A stretch of DNA of 43,849 nucleotides. Origin: Anaerolineae bacterium. Lineage in GTDB: Bacteria; Chloroflexota; Anaerolineae; JAAYZQ01. This document shows positions 1 through 27,781 of this stretch, piece after piece (the stretch's first letter is position 1; the number at the start of each line of letters is the position of its first letter). A model generated the notes under the pieces. The model worked only from the letters and a program-made list of their open reading frames with translations, searched no databases and was not told the origin of the DNA. The stretch spans positions 1 through 43,849 of the forward strand of contig JAMJFU010000007.1 of NCBI GenBank assembly GCA_023544525.1. Direction: 5' to 3'. Position numbers and translations under genes: made by a program.

Positions 1-229
1 AGACCGCGCGCCGTCCCTCTTTGTCCACCAAAAAGATGCCGGCGTAGCAGAGGTCGAATCGATCGCGGATCAATTCCGCCGCCACGGGTAACAGCTGCTG
101 CAGATCGAGGATCGAGCTGGCAGCCCCGGATATCTCGGCCACTGCCTCCAACTGCAACGCCCGGCGCCGGGCATGCTCCAATACACGCCAATCGTGGGCG
201 GTGCCCTGGCCTGCTGCCTGCTCAGTCAT
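1..229 (-). CDS. GAF-domain sensor protein, N-terminal part (cut by window start)
   Basis: The reading frame starts with ATG at 229 and runs off the left edge, so only about 76 residues are visible. The start overlaps the end of the preceding gene: the ATG and that gene's TGA lie within eight bases (222-229), typical of translational coupling. The visible part has a hydrophilic N-terminus with a basic patch and a helix ending in a Leu-rich segment. It then enters a GAF fold, seen in residues DRFDLCYAGIFLVDKEG, which match the first GAF strands of the three upstream proteins. No membrane segment is visible. It is the last visible gene of the minus-strand signalling operon. Whether it ends as a histidine kinase or as another GAF-only protein cannot be seen. 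Confidence 0.8.
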   Translation of the reverse strand, partial: MTEQAAGQGTAHDWRVLEHARRRALQLEAVAEISGAASSILDLQQLLPVAAELIRDRFDLCYAGIFLVDKEGRRAV

Positions 230-2024
230 CGGCCTTGCTTCCATCCGAGTCAGGCGACCCACCGCCGGGGTGCTGCGGAGTATCCTCCGTCGCCGGCTCC
301 GGTGCCACTACAGGGGCTCGGCCGCGCAACTGCTCCTCGGTCCCCAGGCGAACATAGGCACGCGGCGCGCCAAGTGCCTTCGCCAGTTCAGTTACGGTGC
401 TCTGCAGGATCGTCTCGATATCCACCGAGCGCCGCATGTTCTCGGTAATCTGCCGGATGGCCTGCTCCCGGGATGCGCGTCGCTGTGTCTCCTGGTACAG
501 CCGCGCGCTCTCCAGGGCGATGCCCAGTTGGTCCACCAGGGTCTGCAACAGGGCAACCTCGTCGCCGGTCCAACCCCCTGCATCCTTCGGCTTGTATGCA
601 TCCAGCACGCCGATCACCTGGCCACGCACCTGGAGGGGCATCGCCAGGGTAGACATCCCGTCCAGCTCGCCGGAAACGGGGGTGCCATGCTGGACGGCGC
701 TATCCATTTCCTCCCGCCATTCGCCGTCGCCTGCCAGTATGCCCTGGGGGTCGTAGCGCTGTGCCAGTTGGTGCCGTGCTCGGCTGAGCCGCTGCCAGTC
801 CGCCAGGCTTAGCCGGCCGTACGCCCGCCGCTCGGCCTCGAGGCTCTGTTGGAGCTGCTCGAAGAGGCGAGCGTTGGCAATGGCGACTGCAATCTGATCG
901 GCCAGGACCTGGAGTACGACCACGTCCTCCTGGCCAAAGGCACCTGCTTCGCGGCTCTGCACATCCAGGACGCCAATGATCTCTCCTCTCGCCTGCAGCG
1001 GTAGCGCGATTTCAGATCGCGTCTCTGGCAGATCGGGGTTATCAAAGTACACGCTGTCTGTGCCCACGTCCAGAGCGATGCGGTGCTCCCCATGGGCAGC
1101 CACGTGGCCAACCAACCCAACCCCAAGCTTTAGCTTATGGGCACGGGCCAGCATCCGCTGCCCCCCCTCCGACGAGGCAGCACACAATACGGCGAAGCCG
1201 CTCTGCTTGTCCAGCAGAAAGATGCCGCTATGATAGAAGCCAAAGCGGTCCGATACGAGATGCGCTACTTCGTCCAGCAGCGTATCAACGTCCTGCAAGA
1301 CCACTGCCTCGCGGGCTACCTGGGCTGCCGTCCTGAGCTGGATATTTCGCTGAGCAAGGTCGGCCGTCCGCTTGATTACCTCTGCCTCCAGATGGCGGCG
1401 TTGCTCCTCCAATTGGGTGGCCAGCGACCGCGTCTCGCCGAGGGCACCGACCAGGCGTGGCACAATCTCGTTCTGGGCCACCACGATGAAGGCGCTCACC
1501 ATGGTCATGACCACAGCATCCGTCACCCAGCCGATCACGTTGGTGGAGCCCGCTGGCTGAGCGGTGGGAATCCTGCCAGTAGACAGGGCCCAACCCATGC
1601 CCAACATGGTCACCGGCACAAGGGTCACCGATAGAATCGCCTCCTGCAGCCCAAGAAAGACGCTGGCCATGAACGGCAGGACCAGAAGGAAGACTCGGCC
1701 ATTCCCCTGGCGCCCATCCGACACAAAGTCCATAATGGCCAGGCCATAGACAAGGCACATGATCACCGCTACCTGCCATGAATACGGCACCCGCCGCCAA
1801 AAGGCGATCACGGCCATGATCCCGTAAGCCAGCCAGTAGAGAGGAATAGACCAATACACACCCTGCGAAAAGTCGTAGACAGAGCCGGCGATCGCCGCCA
1901 GCGGACCGGCGACCACCAAGATGCGCAGGGCAGCCCGGATCAGCCGGTCCTGCCAAACACGCACATCCTCAAGCGGAGAGATGAGGGGTTGGAAGTCCCT
2001 CAAATCCTGGTCTGTCTTGTCCAC
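222..2024 (-). CDS. Membrane protein with two GAF domains, no output domain
   Basis: 600 residues from a GTG start preceded by an AAAAGGAA ribosome site. About six hydrophobic segments fill residues 32-185. A coiled coil (about 195-235) leads into a first GAF domain (about 245-388, with the helix LADQIAVAIANARL) and a second, shorter GAF-like domain (about 405-510). The tail (515-562) resembles the opening of a third GAF domain and then becomes a Pro/Gly-rich end. There is no HisKA, HATPase, GGDEF or other output module. GAF domains bind small ligands or mediate protein contacts; the ligand here is unknown. It probably feeds signals by contact to the kinase at 5319-7673, which is inference. 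It is closely similar in plan to its two upstream neighbours, suggesting tandem duplication. Confidence 0.85.
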   Translation of the reverse strand: MDKTDQDLRDFQPLISPLEDVRVWQDRLIRAALRILVVAGPLAAIAGSVYDFSQGVYWSIPLYWLAYGIMAVIAFWRRVPYSWQVAVIMCLVYGLAIMDFVSDGRQGNGRVFLLVLPFMASVFLGLQEAILSVTLVPVTMLGMGWALSTGRIPTAQPAGSTNVIGWVTDAVVMTMVSAFIVVAQNEIVPRLVGALGETRSLATQLEEQRRHLEAEVIKRTADLAQRNIQLRTAAQVAREAVVLQDVDTLLDEVAHLVSDRFGFYHSGIFLLDKQSGFAVLCAASSEGGQRMLARAHKLKLGVGLVGHVAAHGEHRIALDVGTDSVYFDNPDLPETRSEIALPLQARGEIIGVLDVQSREAGAFGQEDVVVLQVLADQIAVAIANARLFEQLQQSLEAERRAYGRLSLADWQRLSRARHQLAQRYDPQGILAGDGEWREEMDSAVQHGTPVSGELDGMSTLAMPLQVRGQVIGVLDAYKPKDAGGWTGDEVALLQTLVDQLGIALESARLYQETQRRASREQAIRQITENMRRSVDIETILQSTVTELAKALGAPRAYVRLGTEEQLRGRAPVVAPEPATEDTPQHPGGGSPDSDGSKADD

Positions 2025-2059
2025 TCGTCAGTTCCTTTTCTCAAGAGCGCTCCAGACAT

Positions 2060-3808
2060 TCACTCCATGCCACGCGAGGGCATGCTATCTGGTGAGCCCC
2101 CAGAGCCCTCGTTCTCAGACCCATCTGTATCGACCAGCCGCAGGTCGAGGGCCACCAGCCCGAGCACGCCGGCAATCTCGCCAACCGCTGTGCTTAGCAC
2201 GGTTTCCACGTCCAGGGACGCCCGCATCCGGCCTGTCGCCTGACTGGTGAGTCGCTCCCGGGCCGCCCTTCTCTGCGTCTCGTCCAGGAGCCGCAGGTTG
2301 TCGCTGACGAGGGCCAACCGGGCAACTACAGCTTCGACGGCTGCCATGTCAGCCGGCTGCCACGGCCCTGAAGCCTCCGGCCGGTGAAAGCCCAGAACAC
2401 CGATCGTGGCACCGCGCAACCTGATGGGAAACGCAAGCAGATGATGCCCCGTCTCTGCTTGGACGCCGGTCACGGGACTGCCTGAAGCTCGAGCCTCCTC
2501 GAACAGAGGCTGCCACCATTCCTCTCCCATCTCACCTGAACCCCAGCGCTGCGCCGGCTTGGGGTGCTCGGCCAGGAAACGCTGCCAGCTCTCGGTGGCA
2601 TAGTGGCGATACAGCGCATCAATTTCGCGCAGGCTGCTCTGAGCGTCGGCATAGAGCCGGGCGTTCTCCAAGGCGATCGCTATCTGATCCGCCACTGCCT
2701 GCAGGACCACCAGTTCATCCCGGTCGGAAACCAGCGGCTTGCTCGAACGGAGATAGAGGACGCCAGCCACCTGCCCACCAGCCTCGAGGGGCAGCGCCAG
2801 CTCCCCGGCAAAGTCCCTGCCGTCGGGCAGAAGGCTGCCGTCCCGGAGCGGGAGCCGTGCTGCTTGCACAACAGCAGCGGGGATAACCTGGCCTGTTGAG
2901 ACAGGTACCCTGCGGGCAGTGGCAGCCGCTACCAACACCGGCTCGTCACCATGCTCGTCCGTCAAATAGATCTCGGCTCCCTCAAGGCCCAACTGCTCCG
3001 CGATCAGCTCCGCGGCACGAGCCAGCAACGCCTCGGGCTCAAGCAGACCCGTGACCTCGTGGGTGATGCGCGTCGACACCTCCAGGAGACGCGCGTAGCG
3101 GTCCAGCTCCTCTGAGCGGAACTGCAGCTGGTCGCGCGCGGTTCCAAGCTCCTCGGCACTCTCGCGGGCCGCTTGTAGCGCCTCCCGCTGAGCTTTCGCA
3201 AACAAGGTCTGCACAACGATCAGCATGATCAGCAACAGGCCAAAGAGCAACCCCTGGCCCAGCCATTGCGACAGCTCGAGGGAAGCCGCCCCGGCGATCC
3301 CAGCACCCTGCATCCAGCCAGCAGCCACTGCAACGGCCACGGCGCCATAGACCGTCACGCTTAGCAGAGCCATGACCAGGCCTGGACGGATGCCCAGCAC
3401 GATCACACCCAGGGCAGGCAAGGCCAGCAGCAGGACCATACCGCTGCCCACCAGGCCGGCATTTACCATGAACGTAGCGGCTATCATATAGCCCAGGAAG
3501 AACAGGCCCCATGCTCGCAGCCGAGAGTCAAGCTGCCGGAGCAAGGCCAAGCTGACGATGAACGCACTTATCGCCAGCGCGAGCACTGGCTGGGATGCCC
3601 TCTGTGGCTCGCGCGCTGCCTGCAGGATGCTGTTCCCAGCCACCAGCAGCGCGGCGCCCGAGGCTATGACGAGCAGGATGTTGAGTATGCGCCTCCGCCA
3701 GTTCTGAACGTCAGCCTCGATCTCTGCTGCGACACGCTCGGAGGCCGGTTCTACATGCAGTCTTGTTCTGTCCTGCGACACTTCCGTCACCCTTTGTCCA
3801 GGCCGCAT
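2060..3808 (-). CDS. Membrane protein with tandem GAF domains
   Basis: 582 residues when started at ATG 3808. The frame is open further upstream to 4006, but that would overlap the previous gene by about 200 bases, so the start just after that gene's stop (five-base gap) is preferred. Hydrophobic segments occupy about residues 41-200 in five or six passes. A coiled coil (about 203-245) is followed by a GAF domain (about 255-385, helix VADQIAIALENARLY), a linker, a second GAF-like domain (about 410-515), and a truncated third-GAF-like tail. There is no catalytic output domain. It sits 35 bases upstream of the next GAF gene in the same operon. Function is unknown beyond a sensory or scaffold role inferred from domains. 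Confidence 0.83.
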   Translation of the reverse strand: MRPGQRVTEVSQDRTRLHVEPASERVAAEIEADVQNWRRRILNILLVIASGAALLVAGNSILQAAREPQRASQPVLALAISAFIVSLALLRQLDSRLRAWGLFFLGYMIAATFMVNAGLVGSGMVLLLALPALGVIVLGIRPGLVMALLSVTVYGAVAVAVAAGWMQGAGIAGAASLELSQWLGQGLLFGLLLIMLIVVQTLFAKAQREALQAARESAEELGTARDQLQFRSEELDRYARLLEVSTRITHEVTGLLEPEALLARAAELIAEQLGLEGAEIYLTDEHGDEPVLVAAATARRVPVSTGQVIPAAVVQAARLPLRDGSLLPDGRDFAGELALPLEAGGQVAGVLYLRSSKPLVSDRDELVVLQAVADQIAIALENARLYADAQSSLREIDALYRHYATESWQRFLAEHPKPAQRWGSGEMGEEWWQPLFEEARASGSPVTGVQAETGHHLLAFPIRLRGATIGVLGFHRPEASGPWQPADMAAVEAVVARLALVSDNLRLLDETQRRAARERLTSQATGRMRASLDVETVLSTAVGEIAGVLGLVALDLRLVDTDGSENEGSGGSPDSMPSRGME

Positions 3809-3812
3809 GTCT

Positions 3813-5312
3813 TCACTGGATCTCGCGGTCCTCCGCTGTACCGAGTTCGACATAGCCGCCCGCAGCGCCCACCAACCGTCCGGTCTGTTCCAGTGCCTCG
3901 CGGAGCAGCGAGTCCAGGTCGAAAGAAGCTGTGATCCGGTCGCTGATGCTCCGCAGGGCATGCTCCCGCCATGCCTGCCCTTGGGACTCTTCCAGCAACC
4001 GGGCACGGTCGAGGGCCGCCGCAGATTGCTCGGCGAGGATCTCGTAAAGCCGCAACGTCACCGGCGAGAACGGCCCGGGCTTGCCCCGATCGATGGCGAC
4101 GAACCCGAGGCTGCGCCCACCCAGCCGCAGCGGCAAGATGACCAGCGCCTGGGTCCCTGTCTCCAGAAGCATGCTGCGGGAGCTTTCCGGCAGCTGTTCA
4201 CTCTGCGCCATGTCCTCGATGACCATCATGCTCCTGGGCACCGAACGGGGAAACGCCGCCGGCGCGGGGCGGTGGCGATCCTCCCTGCGCCAATCGGCCA
4301 GGAAGGCCATCGCTTCCGCGCTGCCAGCCAGGCCTGTCTCCACGCGAGCCACCGCGCAGCCATCTGCCTCCGTCTCGCGGACAGAGGCTACGATGGCCTC
4401 AGCCACCTCCGCAGTGCTCGTCGCGGTTGAGAGACGACGGCTGATCCGAAACAGAGGGCTGGTGGCCTCCAGGAGCTCGGACTCTTCTGACAGCCTGCGC
4501 GCATTATCCACGGCCACCGCAACTTGATCGGCCACCAATTGCAGCAGGGCAATGCCTTCCGTCTCGAATGCTGCGGGTTGTGTCGACTGAACATCCAGAG
4601 CACCCAGGACCCGTTCACCGACGATCAGCGGCAAGGCTGCCTCGGAGCGGGTCCTGGGCAGGTGCGGGTTGTCAAAACGCACCGGTTCATTGCCGACATC
4701 CAGGGCGACGCGGGCCGCCCGCCCGGCGCACGCAGCACCCACCATCGACCGGCCGCCGACCTTCAGCCTGTGCCCTTGCTCCTTCATGATGCGCCCCGGC
4801 TCGCCAGTCCCAGCCTCCAGGAGGGCGTACTCCCCTGCCGGGTCCAGCAGGAAAAGGCCAGTGTAATACAGATCGAAGCGTTCGCGCACCAACGCCACGA
4901 CCTCCCGGCACAGCCTGCCCAATTCCAGAATTGAGGCACTCGCCCGGCCCACCTCGATCACGGTCGTCAGGTCGGCGCTACGCTCTGCAACCCGCTCCTC
5001 CAGGTCCCTGCGTAACGACTCCAACTCGTGCAGCACCTGGCCGCGCTCCCTATCGCGCTCCTCCAGCTGCTCATTCAGGCGAGCCAGGGCGTCCTGGCGT
5101 CTGCCAGCCAGCGCTGCAAAGAGGCCCAGGAACAGAGGAGCGGTATCGATCACCCAATGCAGTGGGCTGGCCCGCTGCACCGAGAGCAAGCTCTCCAAGG
5201 TCAAGGGCAATCCCTGGAAGAGCAGGTCGAGGATCGTCGAGAAGGCAGGAAAGAGCAGGCCAAACAGGGCCCCATACACGGTGTAGCGCAGGGTCGCGCT
5301 CGGTCTCTGCAC
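3813..5312 (-). CDS. Membrane-anchored tandem-GAF protein
   Basis: 499 residues from a GTG start six bases after the kinase stop. A GAGGGGG ribosome site lies within the kinase's last codons, so the two are probably translationally coupled. Two hydrophobic segments (about 10-28 and 52-68) are followed by a long charged coiled coil (70-118). GAF domain 1 spans about 120-270 (LVADQVAVAVDNARR) and GAF domain 2 about 290-440 (LAEQSAAALDRARLL). The C-terminus again stops after the opening of a third GAF-like unit. No histidine, receiver or cyclase motif was seen. It is the GAF protein nearest the operon's only visible kinase, so it is the most likely direct partner, by position only. Confidence 0.83.
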   Translation of the reverse strand: MQRPSATLRYTVYGALFGLLFPAFSTILDLLFQGLPLTLESLLSVQRASPLHWVIDTAPLFLGLFAALAGRRQDALARLNEQLEERDRERGQVLHELESLRRDLEERVAERSADLTTVIEVGRASASILELGRLCREVVALVRERFDLYYTGLFLLDPAGEYALLEAGTGEPGRIMKEQGHRLKVGGRSMVGAACAGRAARVALDVGNEPVRFDNPHLPRTRSEAALPLIVGERVLGALDVQSTQPAAFETEGIALLQLVADQVAVAVDNARRLSEESELLEATSPLFRISRRLSTATSTAEVAEAIVASVRETEADGCAVARVETGLAGSAEAMAFLADWRREDRHRPAPAAFPRSVPRSMMVIEDMAQSEQLPESSRSMLLETGTQALVILPLRLGGRSLGFVAIDRGKPGPFSPVTLRLYEILAEQSAAALDRARLLEESQGQAWREHALRSISDRITASFDLDSLLREALEQTGRLVGAAGGYVELGTAEDREIQ

Positions 5313-5318
5313 GCTCTT

Positions 5319-7673
5319 TTACCCCCTCGCCGGAAGGCCAGCGGCCGGATCGCACGGCAGCGTGAACGTAAAGGTCGAACCCACACCCTCTTCGCTTTCG
5401 ACCCATATCTCCCCGCCAAGCCTCTCCACGACCCGCTTGCTTATGGCCAGGCCAAAACCGCCTCCACCAGCCCCATCGCCCCCCTCCTCCTGCCCACCAT
5501 TGGCAAAGATCCGCTCCCGCTCGACGCGAGGGATCCCCGCCCCGGTGTCGCTGACGCTGATTTTCACGGCGCCGTCTGTTTCGGCGATCTGCAGGCGGAT
5601 GCTTCCCTCATCGGTGTATTTGACCGCGTTCGACATCAGTGCCAGGATAACCTGCCGGAGTCGCTGGCCATCGGTGAAAAGGCTCGGCGCAGGCACAGGG
5701 ACATCCATTGTAAGCCGGACTCTTTTGTTGCGGACCAGTGCCTGGGTCGTGGCCATCACTCCTTCCAGGATCTCCTCCAGATCTACCTCTGACGCTGAGA
5801 AAGGGGCTACCCCCAGCTCCAGCTGTGAGAGCTCTAACATGTCGTTGATCAATCCCAATAGTTGCCGTCCACTGTCGTGGATCGTCTCCAGGTCGGCACG
5901 CTGTAGATCGGATAGCGGTCCATCCAACTCCTTGAGCATGACGCGGGAAAAGCCGATGATCGAGTTCAGAGGCGTTCGCAGAGCGTGAGACATGTTGACC
6001 AGGAACTCGGCCTGGATCTCGTCCAGCTCTCGTAGCCTGTGGATCGTCTCCCGCTCCAGGCCATAGACCCTTGCATTCTCGATCGCGATGGCGATCTGAT
6101 CTGCAAGAGAACGATATACCAACTGATCATCGTCGCCAAAATCCTCCGGGCGTTCGCTCTGGAGGTAGAGCACGCCCAGGATCTGTTCCCGAAGGCAGAG
6201 CGGGACGGCCATCTCGCAGGCGACCGGCGCCGCAGAGCCTTCCTGGTGAAGATCCTGGCGCAGAACGCGCCGGTCGCCGTGCGCCGCGACCTGGCCCACC
6301 AGCGAGGGCCCGTCCACTTGGAGCTCACGGTCCGTCAAAGGCACGCCAGCGCTGCCTGCCTGCCACACCGCCCTGCGACCGGTCTCGTCCAGCAGGTAGA
6401 TGGATGCCGACTTGAGTTCAAACGCCCTGCCGATCAGAGTAGCCACCGTGTCGAGGAGCTGGTCGAGTTCCCGGATCGAAGAGGCCACCCGTGCCACCTC
6501 GGCGCTGATGCTCAGCTGCATGATATAGTAACGCGAGTTCCGGTTGGCCTCCTCCAACTGGGCGGTTCGCTCCGCCACCTTGGCCTCGAGGCTGCCGTAC
6601 AGAACCCTGAGCTCAGCCGCCATGTGGTTGAATACCCGGGCCAGGACACCGATCTCGTCCTTGCGGACAATCGGCACCCGCTGGTTCAGATCGCCCCGTG
6701 CCATCCACGCCGCCGTTTCAGTCAGCTGGATGATGGGCCGCGTGATCCGCCGTGTGACCACGGCTGCAATGGCTGCGGTCATCAACGCCACAACCAGGGT
6801 GGCACCGATGACGAGCGCAGTCAGGTTCTCGGCGGGCGCTGCAAGCGCGTTCCGCGGCTGTTCGACGATGATACCAACGCCCAGCCTTGGACTCCAGAGG
6901 TAGGCGCCCATGACCGGGATGCCGTCCTCACCCGGGTAGCGGGCGACCCCCTGCCCGTGCGGCCCAGAAAGGAACCCCGGGGCCCAGCCGGCTTCGGCGC
7001 TCGGCAGAAACTGGCCCGCCTGTGAGACTATCTGGCCTTCCTCTGTAACGAGGCGAGTCGTGGCTCCTTCACCCAACCCTGGCGAGGCGCTGATAGCCCG
7101 CTCCAGCAGATCCCAGCTCAGTAGGCCAACCAGCAGTCGATCGTCCCAGCGGTAACCTATCGCCGGAAGCAACTCCCCAGGGCCCCCCGGCGCCCGGACA
7201 AAGACCAGCTTGCCATGGTTGTCCCCAACCGATCGCCAGTCCACAGCGCCTGTCGCAGGCACGCCAGTGCTGGCAATCGTTGTCCCCTGCGAAAGGCCTA
7301 CCAGGGTCAAGCCCACAAAGGCCGGCTCCAGAGCCTGTGTCTGCACCAGCATCTGCCCACTGTCCACTCCCTCTTCCAGAGCGACAGCGGCCAGAGAAAG
7401 GGCCCGCTCCCGGGCCTCGAACCAAGCCCTCAGGTCCCCTTCCTTCAAGACGACGACATCTTCCAGCAAGGACCCCAGCCTGGCCTGGCTGTCGCGCTCG
7501 ATCTGGTGGTAGGTGAAGAAGGCCAGCAGGCTGAGTGGAACTATGGCCAGGAGCAGGAAAGCGATAAGGAGGGTCTTGCCCAGACCACCCCGCATACCCA
7601 GGGGAGCAAAGGCTTGGGGCGAAGACTGGGAGAAGAGATAGGTCTTGATCGCTCTTATGGCCCGCTCTGCCAT
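5319..7673 (-). CDS. Sensor histidine kinase (extracytoplasmic sensor, HAMP, GAF, HisKA, HATPase)
   Basis: 784 residues. A first membrane helix (about 34-55) and a second (about 285-308) bracket a roughly 230-residue extracytoplasmic sensor that looks Cache-like. A HAMP linker (about 308-362), a coiled coil, and a GAF domain (about 400-540) follow. The dimerization box carries the phospho-acceptor His563 in NMSHALRTPLNS, where the usual SHELRTPL Glu is Ala. The ATP-binding domain has an N-box (Asn682), the DTGAGIP box (about 709) and a glycine-rich G2 box near 736-741. AGGAAATCG before ATG 7673 supports the start. It follows the two receivers by 7 bases and is the only complete kinase in the operon, so it probably phosphorylates them. 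The signal is unknown. Confidence 0.93.
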   Translation of the reverse strand: MAERAIRAIKTYLFSQSSPQAFAPLGMRGGLGKTLLIAFLLLAIVPLSLLAFFTYHQIERDSQARLGSLLEDVVVLKEGDLRAWFEARERALSLAAVALEEGVDSGQMLVQTQALEPAFVGLTLVGLSQGTTIASTGVPATGAVDWRSVGDNHGKLVFVRAPGGPGELLPAIGYRWDDRLLVGLLSWDLLERAISASPGLGEGATTRLVTEEGQIVSQAGQFLPSAEAGWAPGFLSGPHGQGVARYPGEDGIPVMGAYLWSPRLGVGIIVEQPRNALAAPAENLTALVIGATLVVALMTAAIAAVVTRRITRPIIQLTETAAWMARGDLNQRVPIVRKDEIGVLARVFNHMAAELRVLYGSLEAKVAERTAQLEEANRNSRYYIMQLSISAEVARVASSIRELDQLLDTVATLIGRAFELKSASIYLLDETGRRAVWQAGSAGVPLTDRELQVDGPSLVGQVAAHGDRRVLRQDLHQEGSAAPVACEMAVPLCLREQILGVLYLQSERPEDFGDDDQLVYRSLADQIAIAIENARVYGLERETIHRLRELDEIQAEFLVNMSHALRTPLNSIIGFSRVMLKELDGPLSDLQRADLETIHDSGRQLLGLINDMLELSQLELGVAPFSASEVDLEEILEGVMATTQALVRNKRVRLTMDVPVPAPSLFTDGQRLRQVILALMSNAVKYTDEGSIRLQIAETDGAVKISVSDTGAGIPRVERERIFANGGQEEGGDGAGGGGFGLAISKRVVERLGGEIWVESEEGVGSTFTFTLPCDPAAGLPARG

Positions 7674-21109: not shown

Positions 21110-22636
21110 TCAGACAGGCACATCTACGACAACGATCGTTCCCCTTTCGGCGCTGGTCAGTACCTTGAAATAGCCGCCCAGACGCTGAGCGCGCTCCTCC
21201 ATGCCAATCAGGCCGAACTGGCCCATCAAGCCGAAATCTCCCGGCCGTCCAATGACCGCAAAGCCGTTGCCGTCATCGTGGACCGTGACCCGGATCCTGG
21301 CACCACGAAACTCTACACCCACGACAACTTCGGATGCTCCCGAGTGCCGGCGGGTATTGTTCAATGCTTCCTGGACGATCCGGTATAATTCCAGTTCCGT
21401 CTCAGGTCGTAGACGGCGCTTCTCACCAGTGACCTCTAACCTTGCCTCGACGCCCCTCGACCCCAGATCCGATATCAGTGCCTCAAGCGCTGCCAGAAGG
21501 CCCAAGTCATCCAGGATCGGCGGACGCAGATCCCGGCTGAACCTGCGCACGCCCCGCACCATTTCTTCAACCCGTGCCTGGAATTGCTCCACGCGTTCCG
21601 CTGCCGATCCCGATAGCCCCTCGTCGACAGCCAGTGTGTCTATGCGGCGTGACAGGTCGATCAACCCCTGGATCGTGTCGTCGTGCAGCTCCCGGGCGAT
21701 CCGCTTTCTCTCCTCTTCCTGAGCCTCCGTGATCTTGCGCACATAGTGGCGCATACTCTCGCACAGTCGCGCGTTCTCGACGGCCACGCCAACCTGGTGT
21801 CCGATGGCCGCAAACATCTCGCGGTCGATGGCATCAACCAGGTGAATGTCACGCAGGTAAAAGTCCATCACGCCCAATAGATTGCCCTTTGAGGTCAGCG
21901 GCACACACACATGTGAGTGGGGTTCATGATACGGGCAGCGGGTGTGGTTTGGATGTGCCAGTGCGTCGCGCACGATCAATACCTCGTTCACCTCCGCCGT
22001 CATACCACACAAACACTCACCTATAGGGACCTTCCTCTCGCGCTCCAGGACCTCGGGGGGCATGCCCCGGTGCGCACGAAGGTGCAGCATCTGACCCCGA
22101 GGATCGACCAAAAAGATCGCACCCCGCGGCTCAAGGCTCCCGACCACCTCCAGCACTCGATCCAGCGCCTTGTTGAGCATGGAATCCAGGTCGTAAGGTC
22201 GCGTCAGGGTGAGGGCAACAGCATTGACCGTCGCCAATTGCTCGACCGCTTTCTGGCGCAGCCGTTTCTCCCTTTCCTGAACCTCGATCAACCACACTAA
22301 GACCAGGCCCACTACGGCGACGCCAATGGTCTCGAACAGGGCATCTGCTGGCAGCTCGGAGATCCAAATGACCCGGGGCAACATCACGGCCACGGCCAGA
22401 CCTAGGGTCACCACGCCGCCCAGGTATCCAAAGGCCAGTGAACCCGCCACGACCGGCAGCAAGAAGATGATACGGACCACTGCTTGTCTGGTCATGGGAA
22501 ACGTCGTCGTAGGAGCCGCCGGGATCGCATAGTGGAAGAAGCTGCAGATCGCCAGCATGACCAGCACAATCCAGAAGTATCGGTTTGCCAAGATGTCTTT
22601 CAATCTATCCACTGTGCCTCTGCTATGCGGTTTCAT
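21110..22636 (-). CDS. NarL-family sensor histidine kinase with Cys/His-rich GAF domain
   Basis: 508 residues from ATG 22636, which overlaps the regulator's last codons by 14 bases. GTG 22612, with AGAGG just upstream, is an alternative start. Four hydrophobic segments (about 17-120) form a small membrane domain. A short coiled coil leads to a GAF domain (about 145-300). HisKA_3 has phospho-acceptor His318 in RELHDDTIQ, and the HATPase has NNTRRH and DDGNGF boxes and a C-terminal GMEERAQRLGG. The GAF holds Cys208, Cys210, Cys234 and Cys244 with His228, His231, His237, His240 and His242, which could bind a metal, Fe-S cluster or heme. It is paired with the regulator at 22623-23288, with which it shares the promoter. 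It faces the Fe-S/NrfD/cytochrome operon, a plausible target. Confidence 0.92.
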   Translation of the reverse strand: MKPHSRGTVDRLKDILANRYFWIVLVMLAICSFFHYAIPAAPTTTFPMTRQAVVRIIFLLPVVAGSLAFGYLGGVVTLGLAVAVMLPRVIWISELPADALFETIGVAVVGLVLVWLIEVQEREKRLRQKAVEQLATVNAVALTLTRPYDLDSMLNKALDRVLEVVGSLEPRGAIFLVDPRGQMLHLRAHRGMPPEVLERERKVPIGECLCGMTAEVNEVLIVRDALAHPNHTRCPYHEPHSHVCVPLTSKGNLLGVMDFYLRDIHLVDAIDREMFAAIGHQVGVAVENARLCESMRHYVRKITEAQEEERKRIARELHDDTIQGLIDLSRRIDTLAVDEGLSGSAAERVEQFQARVEEMVRGVRRFSRDLRPPILDDLGLLAALEALISDLGSRGVEARLEVTGEKRRLRPETELELYRIVQEALNNTRRHSGASEVVVGVEFRGARIRVTVHDDGNGFAVIGRPGDFGLMGQFGLIGMEERAQRLGGYFKVLTSAERGTIVVVDVPV

Positions 22637-23288
22637 CCAGATCGATCCAGCCTTCCCGCAGCGCCCGCACGACCGCCTCAGTGCGTGAGCCTGCGTCGAG
22701 TTTGCCAAAGATGGCACTCAGATGGGCTTGGATGGTCCGCGTACTCAAGTCCAAGTGGTGGGCGATGTCCCTATTGCTCATTCCCTTTGCCGCCAGCTTG
22801 AGTACATCAAGCTCCCGCTCGGTAAGGGGCTGTGGCTCATCCAGCCCCTGCGGCTTGTCCGCAGACCGGGTGAAATGATCGATTACCTTGCGGGCGATCA
22901 CGGGATGCAGGACAGACTCGCCGGCATGGACGGCCCTCACTGCCTCGACAAGGTTGCGCCCTCGGACGTTCTTCAGCAGATAGCCAGCAGCCCCTGCCTC
23001 CAGCAGGGCAAAGACGTACTGGTCGTCATCGTACGCCGTGAGGATCAGAACGGCAGTGGACGGGCAGAGTTCTTTGATCTTTCGAGTTGCTTCGATCCCG
23101 TTAAGTTTGGGCATGGCGATATCCACCAACGCCACGTCGGGGCAGGCCTGGACCGCGAGCGCCACGGTCTCTTGCCCATCGCTGGCCTCGGCCACCACTT
23201 CCAGGTCGCTCTCCCTCTCGAGCAGTTCGCGTGTACCCTCCCGGACCAGGGCGTGGTCGTCCGCCAGGAGAATCCGTATCCTCTGCAT
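22623..23288 (-). CDS. NarL/LuxR-family response regulator
   Basis: 221 residues. The receiver domain (1-120) has Asp10-Asp11, phospho-acceptor Asp56 and the usual Thr and Lys. The LuxR-type helix-turn-helix (about 150-215) contains LTERELDVLKLAAKGMSNRDIA. GGAGG sits five bases before ATG 23288. It is the first gene of the pair and is transcribed from the strong promoter at 23307-23334. Family members bind DNA as dimers when phosphorylated. Divergent placement opposite the electron-transfer operon suggests it controls the shared intergenic region; no NarL-type heptamer pair was identified by eye. Confidence 0.95.
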   Translation of the reverse strand: MQRIRILLADDHALVREGTRELLERESDLEVVAEASDGQETVALAVQACPDVALVDIAMPKLNGIEATRKIKELCPSTAVLILTAYDDDQYVFALLEAGAAGYLLKNVRGRNLVEAVRAVHAGESVLHPVIARKVIDHFTRSADKPQGLDEPQPLTERELDVLKLAAKGMSNRDIAHHLDLSTRTIQAHLSAIFGKLDAGSRTEAVVRALREGWIDLDETA

Positions 23289-23306
23289 GTGTGTCCTCCG
23301 TCCCGC

Positions 23307-23334
23307 ATTATACCACCAGATGGAAAGCTGTCAA
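23307..23334 (-). promoter_or_regulatory. Consensus promoter of the NarL-type two-component pair
   Basis: On the minus strand TTGACA (23329-23334), a 16-base spacer ending in TGG, and TATAAT (23307-23312): both hexamers are perfect and the -10 is extended. The leader is only about 12 bases and includes the GGAGG at 23295-23299. Confidence 0.85.
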
Positions 23335-23551
23335 CCGGCGACACGGACCCGGGCGAAGATGCTGGAATATGCACTCCTCCAGGGCACGCCCTCAAGGCCC
23401 ATCAGCATTTCGGCCAATCCCCGGTTGTGCGAATTGCCTAGGCCGGCACCTACGGATACTGCGTGGTCGATCCAGGCTGTGGGCCAGTTGACCAAGGGAA
23501 GCCATCGAGTGTTTACGCGGAACTGCCAGACAAAGTCTACGGCCTTGGCGG

Positions 23552-23580
23552 ATGACGCGCTCGGCACACCATGCTATAGT
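23552..23580 (+). promoter_or_regulatory. Possible promoter of the electron-transfer operon
   Basis: ATGACG (23552-23557), a 17-base spacer and TATAGT (23575-23580). Both boxes are imperfect, as expected for a promoter needing an activator such as the divergent NarL-type regulator. The interval 23335-23551 between the two promoters holds no gene I can support. It is the natural place for regulator sites. Confidence 0.45.
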
Positions 23581-23614
23581 AGGAGCAGATCCTGCAGTTC
23601 ATGTTTGGCTGTCG

Positions 23615-23671
23615 CCCCGTGAGGAGGGGAAGAGAGAGTCGTAGGGTGGGCAGGTTCTGAGGAGTCTGCCC
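23615..23671 (+). other. Two small hairpins in the predicted leader of the electron-transfer operon
   Basis: CCCC (23615-23618) can pair with GGGG (23626-23629), and GGGCAG (23648-23653) with CTGCCC (23666-23671). They lie between the putative promoter and the first small gene. No known riboswitch class was recognised. Confidence 0.3.
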
Positions 23672-23696
23672 CCGGCGTTGTCTGTGGGAGCCTACT

Positions 23697-23960
23697 ATGG
23701 GAGTGCAAGAGTCAGGGTTACAGGGGTTCTTGGGGTTGCTGATCAACCTGGGCCTGCCGGCATTGGTCTGGGCCACCGTCACGACGGGGCTGATCCTCAT
23801 CGTCCGCGAGAAGGCGGAGGAAGCCCCGACCAGGCACAGCACCGCGGGGGCGGAGGGCATCAGGGCTGGCTGCGTCAGCAGAGAGGAGTATCAGCCCTGC
23901 GAGGTCCCCGGGGAAGCCGAGCAAATGATTTCCATACCCCAGTTCCTTTGTCAGGGTTGA
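23697..23960 (+). CDS. Small membrane protein (87 residues), first of three
   Basis: Starts at ATG with GGGAG six bases upstream. One hydrophobic segment (about 10-36, FLGLLINLGLPALVWATV and onward) is followed by a polar tail with two Cys and an acidic patch. I do not recognise a family. Support comes from the ribosome site, the clean membrane helix, and position at the head of an operon with two more small membrane genes ahead of the Fe-S and NrfD-cytochrome genes. It may be an accessory subunit or assembly factor; this is inference. It may instead be unrelated noncoding leader, since the polar tail has no recognisable features. Confidence 0.5.
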   Translation: MGVQESGLQGFLGLLINLGLPALVWATVTTGLILIVREKAEEAPTRHSTAGAEGIRAGCVSREEYQPCEVPGEAEQMISIPQFLCQG

Positions 23961-24092
23961 CAGTTGTATGAAGGATAGGTTGGCCCGCTCAGAAGGGGCT
24001 CTTCAAGCAAATGGGACAGCCTCGCCCAGAGCAGGTAGCCAGGTCCCGATAGACGCAGGCCAACACAAAACAAGAGCGAAGGAGTGAATCTA

Positions 24093-24221
24093 ATGGTTGC
24101 ACAGTCTGTCATCGCCCTTATCGTCGGCACCATGGTCGTGCTCTTCACACCGGCCCTGGTCCTATCGCCAGAGATCTCGAACCGAATCCGCCGGTTCCTG
24201 AACCGGACTCCGAAACGGTAG
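24093..24221 (+). CDS. Very small membrane protein (42 residues)
   Basis: ATG 24093 follows GAAGGAGTGAATCTA, a good ribosome site. The product has one hydrophobic helix (about 4-25) and a basic tail rich in Arg and Lys (residues 31-42), consistent with an inside C-terminus. It is far below the length usually annotated. No family was recognised. Spacing to the next small gene is 55 bases, and the three small genes and two large ones all point the same way. Confidence 0.55.
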   Translation: MVAQSVIALIVGTMVVLFTPALVLSPEISNRIRRFLNRTPKR

Positions 24222-24276
24222 AGTAGCTGGCAGCCACTCGTCTGCCCAACAAAACGATGCCCGGAGGGAGGCAAAC

Positions 24277-24471
24277 ATGGAACAACTGCTGTTTTGGACA
24301 GGGACGGCTCTGCGGGTGCTGTTAGCGGGAGTCATTGCCCTATTGCCTGGAACCACTGTCTGGCTAACGATGATCGGCATTGGCCTGGCCATCCGCCAGT
24401 TTGCGCGTGGCAGCCTCTATAGACGCCAGGAGCAGAAGAGCGCTGTGACGCCTGGCACCCTGCCCAACTGA
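24277..24471 (+). CDS. Small membrane protein (64 residues)
   Basis: ATG preceded by GGAGGGAGGCAAAC. Residues 5-42 are hydrophobic, enough for one long or two short helices (LLFWTGTALRVLLAGVIALL and onward), followed by a basic, polar tail. No family was recognised. It lies 50 bases before the Fe-S subunit gene. It may be a structural subunit of the membrane complex encoded downstream, in the manner of small helices in other respiratory complexes; this is inference from location. Confidence 0.65.
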   Translation: MEQLLFWTGTALRVLLAGVIALLPGTTVWLTMIGIGLAIRQFARGSLYRRQEQKSAVTPGTLPN

Positions 24472-24521
24472 TATCGCATACCGATCGCCCCAAAGAGTGG
24501 AGGCCGACGAGGAGAAACAGG

Positions 24522-25427
24522 ATGGAACTGGATCGAAGGAAGTTTCTTAGAGTCTGTGGAGCCACTGCGGGAACCCTAATGCTCCCACGCGGGCTTGTCT
24601 ATGCAGGCACCCAGCCGGAACTGCCCCCCGGTGCAGGAATGCTTTGTGATCTCACCCGGTGTATCGGTTGTGGCTATTGCCAACGAGCCTGCTGCGAATG
24701 GAATCAGCTCAACCCCTCGGAGGCCAGCGCGACAGCCAAAGAGCTCGACTGCGGTCTTTCAGCGGAACTCTGGACCTTTCCCGAGCTGCGAGAGATCGAA
24801 GAAGATGGGAAGCAGTTCCGGGTGTTTGTCAAACGGCAATGCATGCATTGTCTCGAGCCAGCCTGCGTATCCGCCTGTCCGGTTGGAGCCCTGAGCAGAC
24901 TAGAGAACGGCGCTGTTACATACGACGAGTCGAAGTGCATAGGCTGCCGCTACTGCATGGTCGCCTGTCCCTACTCAGTACCCAAGTTCGAGTGGGACGA
25001 GCGATTGCCCCGCATCCGCAAGTGCACCTTCTGCGCGGACCGCCAGGCACAGGGTATGGAACCCGCCTGCAGTGCCGCCTGTCCCACGGGGACGCTCACG
25101 TTTGGCAAGCGCGACGAGTTGATCGCAGAGGCCAAGGCACGCATCCAGGCCGATCCTGCTAACTATGTATCCCACATCTATGGCCAGGACGAGCTTGGTG
25201 GATCCTCGTGGTTGTACCTCTCACCCGTCCCCTTCGAGAAGCTGGGTTTCCCCGAGTTCAAGACCGAACCGGTTACAGGTCTCAGCGAAGCCGTCGCCAC
25301 CTATGGGACGGCCGGCGTCGCTGCCAGTGTAGCCGCCATGCTGGGTGGGTTTTACTGGCTCAACCACCGCAAGAGCGAGCCGGAACTCCAGGAACCAGCG
25401 TCCAAAGGCGAGGGTGCCGAACAATGA
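24522..25427 (+). CDS. Tat-exported ferredoxin-type Fe-S protein (HybA/NrfC-like, four clusters)
   Basis: 301 residues with AGGAG before ATG. The N-terminus carries a twin-arginine motif (DRRKFLRVCGATAG) and a hydrophobic stretch, so the protein should be folded and exported. Four CxxCxxC-type sets, 16 Cys in all, fit four [4Fe-4S] clusters: CIGCGYCQRAC, CMHCLEPACVSAC, CIGCRYCMVAC and a split set CTFC ... CSAAC. A C-terminal helix (about 262-282) would anchor it to the membrane. HybA/NrfC-type proteins pass electrons between a NrfD/HybB quinone site and a redox partner. Its stop overlaps the next start (ATGA), so it is co-translated with the NrfD-cytochrome fusion. No catalytic subunit is adjacent. 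Confidence 0.95.
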   Translation: MELDRRKFLRVCGATAGTLMLPRGLVYAGTQPELPPGAGMLCDLTRCIGCGYCQRACCEWNQLNPSEASATAKELDCGLSAELWTFPELREIEEDGKQFRVFVKRQCMHCLEPACVSACPVGALSRLENGAVTYDESKCIGCRYCMVACPYSVPKFEWDERLPRIRKCTFCADRQAQGMEPACSAACPTGTLTFGKRDELIAEAKARIQADPANYVSHIYGQDELGGSSWLYLSPVPFEKLGFPEFKTEPVTGLSEAVATYGTAGVAASVAAMLGGFYWLNHRKSEPELQEPASKGEGAEQ

Positions 25428-27781
25428 ACACCAACACCCACAGAACAAAGTCGACTCTGTTTTACCTCTTGCTGGCCGCCATCGTAGCCGTGGGTGCGGG
25501 CCTGGGTATCGTCCGCCTCCTGAACGGATTGGGGACAACCACGGCCTTGAGCGATGGTTATCCCTGGGGGTTGTGGATCGTATACGACGTGTTCTTTGTA
25601 CCCTTCTCTGGCGGCGCCTTTATGATCCTGGCCGTTACCCACATCTACAACCGGAAGGAGTACCATGCCCTTGCCCGCCCGGTGGTCCTGGCCGGCTTCC
25701 TGGGTGAGATCATGGTTGTCCTGGTCCTTCTCATGGACCTTGGCCGGTGGCACCAGTTCTACAACGTCCTTTTTCCCTGGCACTGGAATATTAACTCGTT
25801 CATGTTCCAGGTCAGCATCTGCCTGACCATCTACATCGGGGTCATGGTCCTGGAGGTGGCACCTGCCATCCTGGAGCGCCTCAACTGGCAGCGACCACTC
25901 AGGCTCATCAAGGTGGCCACCTTGGCCATCGCTGGACTCGGGATCTTGCTTTCCTGTCTGCACCAGTCATCGCTTGGGGCGCTGTTCTTGCTGATGCCGT
26001 ACAAGCTCGACCCCCTGTGGTGGACCGGCCTCCTGCCCTTGCTGTTCTTCACCTCGGCAGTGTTCGCCGGGTTGTCCATGGCCATCCTCGTTGGCACGCT
26101 GAGCTTCAGAGCCGTCGGCCGACGGCTGCAGACCGACCTCCTCGCCAACTTGGCCCGTGCTGCGGCAGTGCTCCTGGGGGCCTACCTCGTGCTCAAGATC
26201 GCCGATCTGCTCATGGCCGGTGAGGCGAGCCTTCTCTTCAGCGGTGGATGGCTGACGGCCCTCTTCTGGGCCGAGATCCTCGTCGGAGTCCTGGTCCCCC
26301 TGGTCCTGTTTGGATGGCGGCGATTCCGGCAGACGAGTGCAGGCTTGACGTGGGGCTCCCTGAGCGTCTTGGGCGGCGTAGCCCTCAACCGGACCAATGT
26401 CGCCCTGCTCGCCTATCAGCCGCCTTCGGGGTCTCACTACTTTCCCAATTGGATGGAGATCGTCATCTCTGTGTCCGCAGTCGCGGCCGGGGTCCTCCTT
26501 TTTGCCATAGCCTTGCGCTTATTGCCTATCCTGCCCAAGGACGAACAAGCCTCGCTGCCTCCCCTGGGTTGGTCTCGCCGCGGATTGGCCTTTGCCCTGG
26601 GCGTCCTGGCGCTGTTGACCGTCGCGGTCGTCCTTTTGGTCCAGCCAGCCACAAGCGTTGAGGCATACAAGGCTCATATTGCCTCACCGGACGAGGCTGC
26701 CAAGAGTCCTGAATCGGGACTCTGCCTTAGCTGTCATGAGGATGCCCAGGTCCTGACCGGCGCGGGGGCCAGCTCAGAGATGCTGAGCCAGTTGACGATC
26801 GAGCCGCAGCCGCTCGAGACCCCACACGGCCGTCTGTCCTGCGTGGTGTGCCACTACGGTGACTCGGAGACAGAGGACATGGATCTCGCCCATGATGGCG
26901 TGTTGGTCGATCCCACGGTTGCCGAGGCAGAGCTGTGTGTCGCCTGCCATTCGGACCTCCCCGAAGAATTCCCGGAGGACAGGCTGCGGACCCCCCATGA
27001 CGAGGTGACGCACGGCGAGGTCGTCGACGTTGCCTGCAGCGACTGTCACGGTGCCGTTGGGCACGGCTTTGACCCTGTGAGCGGCAATTTCGTCTGCCCC
27101 ATGAGCGTCTGCCTCGACTGCCACATCGATAGAGAGCTGGAAAGCGAGCTCGTGGACTGCAGCGCCTGTCACATCGAACCCCATGCCGTGCCCCTGGCCA
27201 TGAGCTGTAGCGACTGCCATCAGGGCACGACAGAGTGGGCGCAGGTAGCAGCGGTCGACCACGAATTCCCACTAGAGGCAGCGCACGCTGAGTTGGAGTG
27301 CAGCACCTGCCACCAGGACATGGTCTGGACCGAGTATGCTGCTGGCGCGACCTGCGCCACCTGCCACCAGCCGCCCAGCGAACCACACTACGGCCCTGTG
27401 TGTGAGGACTGCCACACACCGGCGAGTTTCGCCGCGGCGACACCCCTGGTGGAGACGCACCCCGTTGAACTCACCGGAGCCCACCGGCAGGTGGCGTGCG
27501 GCCAGTGCCATCCTGGGGGGCAAGCCACACCCGAATATGTCTGTGCCGAGTGCCACCAGCCACCCACGGACCACCTGCCTGGAGACTGCAAGGTCTGCCA
27601 CGATCCTGAGGGTTGGGCGGGATCCGCCTCCTTCTGGACAGAACTGGCCCCTGCTATCACCCACGATGTAGACAGCCAAGGAAAATGTCTAATCTGCCAT
27701 GATCCAACGGACGGGATCCAGCCGTCCCCGGCCAACCACAGCCTCTACAGCAACGAGCAGTGTGGCCTGTGTCACAAGTGA
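25424..27781 (+). CDS. Fusion of NrfD/HybB-like quinone-reactive membrane domain and 15-heme c-type cytochrome
   Basis: 785 residues. Residues 1-415 hold ten or eleven membrane helices of the NrfD/HybB family, with HybB-like features (GYPWGLWIVYDVFFVPFSGG and MDLGRWHQFYN). The last helix (about 389-412) leads to an extracytoplasmic region with 15 CxxCH motifs between Cys434 and the penultimate residues; the final motif, CGLCH, is one residue from the end. NrfD proteins oxidise or reduce menaquinone. The fused heme chain would carry electrons to or from periplasmic or extracellular partners. Related modules exist as separate subunits (for example the Geobacter Cbc4-type complex, Qrc, alternative complex III). 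A single-chain form is unusual. No Mo/W, hydrogenase or nitrite reductase gene lies nearby. Confidence 0.93.
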   Translation: MNTNTHRTKSTLFYLLLAAIVAVGAGLGIVRLLNGLGTTTALSDGYPWGLWIVYDVFFVPFSGGAFMILAVTHIYNRKEYHALARPVVLAGFLGEIMVVLVLLMDLGRWHQFYNVLFPWHWNINSFMFQVSICLTIYIGVMVLEVAPAILERLNWQRPLRLIKVATLAIAGLGILLSCLHQSSLGALFLLMPYKLDPLWWTGLLPLLFFTSAVFAGLSMAILVGTLSFRAVGRRLQTDLLANLARAAAVLLGAYLVLKIADLLMAGEASLLFSGGWLTALFWAEILVGVLVPLVLFGWRRFRQTSAGLTWGSLSVLGGVALNRTNVALLAYQPPSGSHYFPNWMEIVISVSAVAAGVLLFAIALRLLPILPKDEQASLPPLGWSRRGLAFALGVLALLTVAVVLLVQPATSVEAYKAHIASPDEAAKSPESGLCLSCHEDAQVLTGAGASSEMLSQLTIEPQPLETPHGRLSCVVCHYGDSETEDMDLAHDGVLVDPTVAEAELCVACHSDLPEEFPEDRLRTPHDEVTHGEVVDVACSDCHGAVGHGFDPVSGNFVCPMSVCLDCHIDRELESELVDCSACHIEPHAVPLAMSCSDCHQGTTEWAQVAAVDHEFPLEAAHAELECSTCHQDMVWTEYAAGATCATCHQPPSEPHYGPVCEDCHTPASFAAATPLVETHPVELTGAHRQVACGQCHPGGQATPEYVCAECHQPPTDHLPGDCKVCHDPEGWAGSASFWTELAPAITHDVDSQGKCLICHDPTDGIQPSPANHSLYSNEQCGLCHK

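Follow-up and report, generated by a model that had tools for sequence, protein, structure and literature searches.

A HybB-type quinone subunit fused to a 15-heme cytochrome in an Anaerolineae bacterium

Several described systems combine an iron-sulfur (Fe-S) protein and a membrane subunit of the NrfD/HybB kind, in most cases with heme c proteins: Hmc (HmcABCDEF) of Desulfovibrio, Nhc (NhcABCD), HybA/HybB of Escherichia coli hydrogenase-2, the HybB-type subunits of formate dehydrogenase operons, alternative complex III (ActABCDEF), Qrc, and the FeS-NrfD-cytochrome sets of MBNT15, Melioribacter and Methanoperedenaceae. The membrane and cytochrome parts are separate in every characterised related complex. 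Here we describe a fusion of the two, with 15 heme-binding motifs, encoded on a 43,849-nucleotide stretch of an Anaerolineae bacterium of the phylum Chloroflexota (contig JAMJFU010000007.1 of assembly GCA_023544525.1), which as a whole is referred to as the window. The fused gene and the gene of its Fe-S partner comprise the following features:

24522..25427, + strand: HybA/HmcB-type periplasmic ferredoxin subunit with a twin-arginine translocation (Tat) leader (RRKFLR), four [4Fe-4S] motifs and a C-terminal tail-anchor helix
25424..27781, + strand: fused protein of 785 residues, HybB-type quinone subunit and 15-heme cytochrome
25424..26554, + strand: HybB-type NrfD domain, residues 1-377, ten transmembrane helices, N-in/C-in
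26555..26641, + strand: junction and eleventh helix, residues 378-406, corresponding to the start and signal anchor of a stand-alone cytochrome
26555..27343, + strand: anchor and cytochrome part with 8 CxxCH motifs, residues 378-640
27344..27778, + strand: 7-heme part, residues 641-785

Hmc likewise unites a multiheme cytochrome, an HmcB-type Fe-S protein and an HmcC-type membrane subunit; however, HmcA is a separate 16-heme protein, and no genes for HmcE (cytochrome b) or HmcF (CCG protein) were found beside 24522-27781. The Fe-S protein had its best NCBIfam matches to HmcB (264 bits, with a cut-off of 420) and HybA (234 bits), both under the equivalog cut-offs, and the membrane domain reached 246 of 550 bits for HmcC; the locus is therefore related to Hmc at a level below those thresholds. 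Nhc shares with the locus a cytochrome, a four-cluster protein and an NrfD-like subunit without a molybdenum (Mo) enzyme (PMC8076601), and nonaheme cytochromes match a profile built on the cytochrome part, whereas the Nhc cytochrome is separate and carries nine hemes; this likeness is one of composition. Hydrogenase-2 offers a close parallel in an Fe-S partner with a Tat leader and tail anchor and in a ten-helix membrane subunit, but at the locus Y99 and E133 of HybB are replaced, the cytochrome is fused on, and there are no HybO/HybC-type hydrogenase genes beside it, so that it does not class as a group-2 hydrogenase.

The closest relatives of the membrane domain are HybB-type subunits of formate dehydrogenase operons from the same class (L040, L041, L042; 48-53%, same clade). 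Unlike the fused protein, they follow an FdhA-like gene, lack a cytochrome and retain the Tyr and the Glu at both changed positions; no FdhA gene is present in the window, which sets the locus apart from HybB-type formate dehydrogenases. In the MBNT15, Melioribacter and Methanoperedenaceae sets a multiheme cytochrome takes the place of the catalytic Mo subunit at the quinone module, as it does here, but there its gene is described as adjacent and separate. In alternative complex III, too, an NrfD-like subunit that reacts with quinone is paired with Fe-S and heme c subunits, and ActC of this complex was the best Foldseek match, followed by PsrC at lower significance; however, ActB-, D-, E- and F-type genes are absent from the locus, and the alternative complex III-like cluster of this genome lies separately on contig C259 (L049). 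The match to QrcD was weak (130 of 570 bits), and a QrcB-like (cofactor-less Mo-type) gene was not found among the flanking genes scanned. The initial annotation had stated that known analogues keep the cytochrome separate; this holds for the characterised ones, but Hmc, Nhc, HybAB and the HybB-type formate dehydrogenase subunits, the closest relatives, had been missed. The 15-heme fusion is real and rare, and it belongs with the FeS-NrfD-multiheme cytochrome complexes rather than forming a categorically new system.

The fused gene and its junction

The gene at 25424-27781 is one open frame in which Pfam detects both an NrfD domain (PF03916, 1.8e-21, residues 42-324) and Cytochrome_C7 (1.5e-22), confirming the single-frame union of an NrfD/HybB membrane part and a 15-CxxCH cytochrome described in the initial annotation. 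All 15 CxxCH motifs fall within residues 434-784, while composition shuffles of that part gave a mean of 0.2 and a maximum of 3. The heme part contains exactly 15 additional His, enough for one distal ligand per heme, and seven distal-candidate His are invariant in seven homologues; these features identify it as a multiheme c-type cytochrome. The predicted mass is 84.7 kDa for the apoprotein and about 94 kDa with 15 hemes, and the latter value replaces the heme-staining band of about 85 kDa expected earlier.

Among NCBIfam profiles, the membrane domain matched HybB best (1.5e-88, residues 13-372), then HmcC (8.9e-73) and QrcD (1e-37), all three below the equivalog cut-offs. The AlphaFold2 model contains ten confident helices before residue 370 (predicted local distance difference test, pLDDT, mostly 80-98) and an eleventh at 385-406. 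A positive-inside count of 11 vs 4 favours an N-in/C-in ten-helix core, in which case helix 11 would place the cytochrome outside. This topology and the NrfD profile match assign the domain to the NrfD/HybB type; the NrfD_2 profile (PF14589) had no match in the genome, and the controls were equally silent.

Stand-alone cytochromes encoded behind NrfC-NrfD pairs, both in other genomes and on contig C495 of this genome, align from their first residues with residues 378-785. Their MIPSRWPRW... matches LPPLGWSRR... here, with Leu378 (CTG) opposite their initiator Met, and HybB-like relatives terminate at about residue 377. Judged from these alignments, the joint coincides exactly with the ends of the two parent genes, neither a stop codon nor a Met codon being left at the joint, and helix 11 is the former signal anchor of the cytochrome. 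The membrane part, previously put at about 415 residues, thus ends near residue 377, and the helix at 386-406 came with the cytochrome. The cytochrome part is itself a mosaic. Residues 378-640 are 49-50% identical to NrfC-NrfD-linked stand-alone cytochromes (L045, L068), and residues 641-785 are 54-56% identical to the C-termini of 17-heme cytochromes from the same genome (L047) and from the one same-family genome searched (L050). In the two 17-heme cytochromes (L047, 3071-5140; L050, 7083-9179), the module shared with the fused protein comprises seven hemes and the last 145 residues.

The upstream Fe-S gene overlaps the fused gene by 4 bp (ATGA), which, with the four Fe-S motifs and the Tat leader, supports the earlier view of a co-translated four-cluster partner. 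Its hydrophobic C-terminal tail is as in HybA. A tree of Fe-S proteins did not resolve the position of the window protein.

Origin of the parts and other fusions

In a tree of 45 HybB-type subunits, the fused protein was placed beside three membrane subunits of formate-dehydrogenase-type operons (support 100/98). On this phylogenetic and alignment evidence, the membrane part is derived from the formate-dehydrogenase branch of HybB-like subunits and the cytochrome from the NrfC-NrfD-linked cytochromes; the gene thus arose when two types of gene that stand apart in relatives were joined in frame. In relatives, HybA and HybB accompany a formate dehydrogenase, a hydrogenase or a separate cytochrome of 7-8 or 12 hemes, or they occur alone.

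Searches for further fusions covered 199 relatives (queried with the full protein), a 400-genome sample of the phylum (junction piece) and a 396-genome sample of the class (junction of the 6-heme fusion type described below); the samples overlap, and they stayed almost entirely within the phylum of the window. No second 15-heme fusion was found in any of the three sets, nor was one present in three genomes from the order of the nearest formate dehydrogenase relative. A scan of genome contigs returned a distant cytochrome only.

A different fusion, of a HybB-type domain to a 6-heme cytochrome, was detected in five genomes (L037, L038, L039, L069 and L121). Like the fused protein of the window, it stands next to a four-cluster protein; however, its cytochrome is of another family, and it adjoins genes for additional subunits, namely HmcE-like (cytochrome b) and DsrK/HmcF-like (CCG-type) ones. 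Four of the five were placed in the tree and formed their own clade (100/100), which indicates that fusion arose at least twice. This second type had been overlooked in the initial annotation. In all five loci (L037, 5534-10399; L038, 3056-7812; L039, 1774-6453; L069, 2648-7513; L121, 4950-9748) the single chain consists of an HmcC/HybB-like part and six hemes. It belongs to a four-gene set with DsrK/HmcF-like, HmcE-like and HmcB-like genes and resembles an Hmc/Tmc-type complex with a built-in cytochrome.

Another recurrent set, comprising a 7-8-heme cytochrome, a Tat Fe-S protein and a HybB-like subunit, was observed at L075, L076, L079, L080, L081, L086 and L087. It is often accompanied by a LuxR-type regulator and a kinase and is apparently an uncharacterised Nhc-like complex common in the class.

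Electron direction and alternative readings

The functional residues of HybB listed by Calisto and Pereira are D58, Y99, D109, S129, E133, Y141, E148, H184, E291 and R329 (PMC8076601). D58, D109, S129, Y141, E148, H184, E291 and R329 are kept in the fused protein as D55, D105, S125, Y137, E144, H180, E284 and R323. For the set D58, D109, S129, E133, Y99, Y141, E148 and H184, this amounts to six of eight, the remaining two being replaced at these codons:

25706..25708, + strand: Glu95 codon GAG, at the position of HybB Tyr99 and QrcD Tyr110; Tyr in 44/44 other aligned subunits
25808..25810, + strand: Gln129 codon CAG, at the position of HybB Glu133, a listed quinone-site residue; Glu in 44/44 others

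Both replacements are thus confined to the fused protein in the alignment of 45 HybB-type subunits, itself included. The change from Tyr to Glu requires at least two base changes, so that a single sequencing error cannot account for Glu95. At nearly invariant positions the fused protein deviates in 5 of 43, a larger number than in every other row but that of the distant E. coli HybB. The Tyr has been assigned a role in the proton path (PMC13059093; PMC8076601), and in QrcD this residue, Y110, is essential for menaquinone reduction (PMC13059093). The two changes suggest that the proton path was retuned for the reaction of this complex.

We consider it probable that the locus encodes a membrane-bound quinone:multiheme-cytochrome oxidoreductase that connects the (mena)quinone pool through the Fe-S clusters and the 15 hemes with the exterior, probably in the quinol-oxidising direction. 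The Tat-exported, tail-anchored four-cluster protein would lie against the HybB-type domain from outside and trade electrons with a quinone bound close to this outer face. The chain of 15 hemes would be held there as the C-terminal tail of the same membrane protein, and electrons would pass from (mena)quinol over the Fe-S clusters to the hemes and on to acceptors at the cell surface or outside the cell, possibly through an MtrC-like decaheme lipoprotein whose gene lies at another place in the genome. The fusion would fix a 1:1 stoichiometry and hold the first heme near the membrane. Omp85 was not detected in the genome by a search that was positive in seven control genomes, and a membrane-anchored cytochrome may therefore face the outside directly.

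Several points weigh against this proposal. The full fusion has no orthologue in the genomes searched, so that a conserved fused state lacks support. For the heme part, the AlphaFold2 model had pLDDT <50 and was not usable, so that the heme spacing and the contact with the Fe-S clusters are assumptions of the proposal. The weakest step is electron direction, since quinone reduction is the normal direction for HybB, for QrcD and for the sister formate dehydrogenases and, by analogy, the flow here may be inward; extracellular transfer is suggested by genome context.

If the flow is inward, the 15 hemes would collect extracellular or periplasmic electrons and the HybB domain would reduce menaquinone with cytoplasmic protons, as in Qrc or hydrogenase-2. 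We regard this as a serious, if less likely, alternative. The membrane domain is of the HybB/HmcC/QrcD kind, for which quinone reduction has been demonstrated or argued, its nearest relatives are formate dehydrogenase subunits, and most proton-path residues are kept. However, the Tyr that is essential in QrcD and important in HybB is Glu here, the quinone-site Glu is Gln, and for the analogous FeS-NrfD-cytochrome sets of MBNT15, Melioribacter and Methanoperedenaceae, which lack a catalytic subunit, a role as quinol-oxidising exit complexes has been proposed.

The fusion could also be a precursor that signal peptidase cuts after residue 414 (VEA|YK), behind the anchor helix, so that the cytochrome is set free from the HybB subunit. 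The anchor helix once served the cytochrome as its signal, a site of the (-3,-1) type persists in the fused protein, and stand-alone relatives carry similar sites (AQA, ALA, GYA). We nevertheless hold cleavage to be less likely than not: with 19 residues, the hydrophobic stretch resembles an anchor rather than a signal that is removed, and the site comes from a rule-of-thumb scan instead of a trained predictor. The Bradyrhizobium fbcH product, a cytochrome b-c1 precursor, is cut in this manner. If cleavage does occur, the fused gene merely secures equal synthesis of both parts. The weights given to the proposed quinol-oxidising role, to inward flow and to cleavage are not mutually exclusive.

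Continued service to a Mo enzyme encoded at another locus, be it a formate dehydrogenase or a different one, with the cytochrome as an extra exit, appears improbable. Both the membrane domain and the adjacent regulator have formate-dehydrogenase-linked proteins as their nearest relatives, and the genome encodes FDH-N, on another contig, as well as further Mo-enzyme homologues. However, behind the FDH-N gene stand genes for an Fe-S subunit of its own and for a short four-helix membrane subunit that is not HybB-type, leaving the HybB-type module free for another job, and the Fe-S protein of the window has its own Tat leader, which those linked to formate dehydrogenase do not have.

An artificial joining of two ordinary genes, by assembly chimerism or a lost stop codon, is very improbable, even though the genome is a draft metagenome bin of 515 contigs in which the fusion is known from assembled sequence and not raw reads, and no second genome has the 15-heme form: the frame is exactly maintained, the cytochrome has lost its initiator Met just as the membrane part has lost its stop, the coding signal is continuous (third-position GC of 0.81 and 0.74 on the two sides of the joint), and the comparable HybB::6-heme fusion evolved elsewhere. 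A repeat-mediated misjoin was rejected, as the junction DNA occurs only once in the 4.5 Mb assembly.

Returning to the outward, quinol-oxidising complex, we tentatively picture an uncleaved single chain that handles quinone and carries electrons outward over 15 hemes. It would be a formate-dehydrogenase-type HybB module that lost its catalytic subunit and gained a cytochrome, with a rewired proton path, quinol oxidation at the outer face and transfer to the cell surface in a cell without an outer membrane; such a complex may explain electron export by Chloroflexota lacking that membrane. The fused gene demonstrates that a modular respiratory quinone unit can be covalently joined to a long heme wire, an event that took place independently at least two times in one phylum, in 15-heme and 6-heme forms. 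The two-gene system is suited to testing if quinol oxidation is possible with a subunit of the HybB type. It also makes the roles of a nearly invariant Tyr and Glu approachable, both being naturally replaced here.

Neighbouring genes and genome context

The region upstream of the Fe-S gene contains three small open reading frames and, beyond them, a two-component pair:

21110..22717, - strand: GAF-domain histidine kinase (HisKA_3), partner of the response regulator; 45% identity to the kinase beside the L036 formate dehydrogenase operon
22623..23288, - strand: divergent NarL/LuxR-type response regulator; 65% identity to regulators beside formate dehydrogenase operons (L036, L073)
23697..23960, + strand: possible small subunit (unproven), 87 residues, one transmembrane helix, ribosome-binding site; no family match of note
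24093..24221, + strand: possible small membrane protein (unproven), 42 residues, ribosome-binding site AGGAG
24277..24471, + strand: possible small membrane protein (unproven), 64 residues, two hydrophobic stretches, ribosome-binding site GGAGG

The three small hydrophobic frames, which lie between the regulator and the Fe-S gene and have ribosome-binding sites, are possible extra small subunits; no convincing homologue of them was found in the compared loci or families. The layout of the 87-residue frame is akin to that of small membrane proteins near related complexes. Because of these frames the complex may consist of more than two polypeptides, so that, of the two-polypeptide wire proposed in the initial annotation, the quinone-to-exterior idea stands and the subunit count may not. 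A degenerate fdhA remnant was sought in 23291-24521, where small frames only were present.

The flanking genes include sugar and glycan genes, the two-component pair, triosephosphate isomerase and genes of propionate metabolism. Their scan returned no catalytic Mo/W, hydrogenase or nitrite reductase gene, in agreement with what had been noted before. Four consecutive genes with GAF sensor domains at 222-7673 (- strand), two of them with a MASE11 membrane sensor domain and one a histidine kinase, are not linked to the fusion.

The genome also encodes complex I-like genes, the alternative complex III-like cluster, two heme-copper oxidase subunit I genes, cytochrome c assembly genes and other NrfD complexes. 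One of these, on contig C495 (L046, 7088-11379), is an NrfC-NrfD-type complex with 13-heme and 10-heme cytochromes and is paralogous to the fused complex. Its 10-heme cytochrome has a lipoprotein-like signal and an MtrC/MtrF-like domain (PF22113), which make it a candidate cell-surface terminal reductase. Another, on contig C67 (L048, 3110-8916), combines a Mo-bis(pyranopterin guanine dinucleotide) enzyme of the PhsA/ArrA/QrcB kind with a 13-heme cytochrome, an Fe-S subunit and an NrfD subunit.

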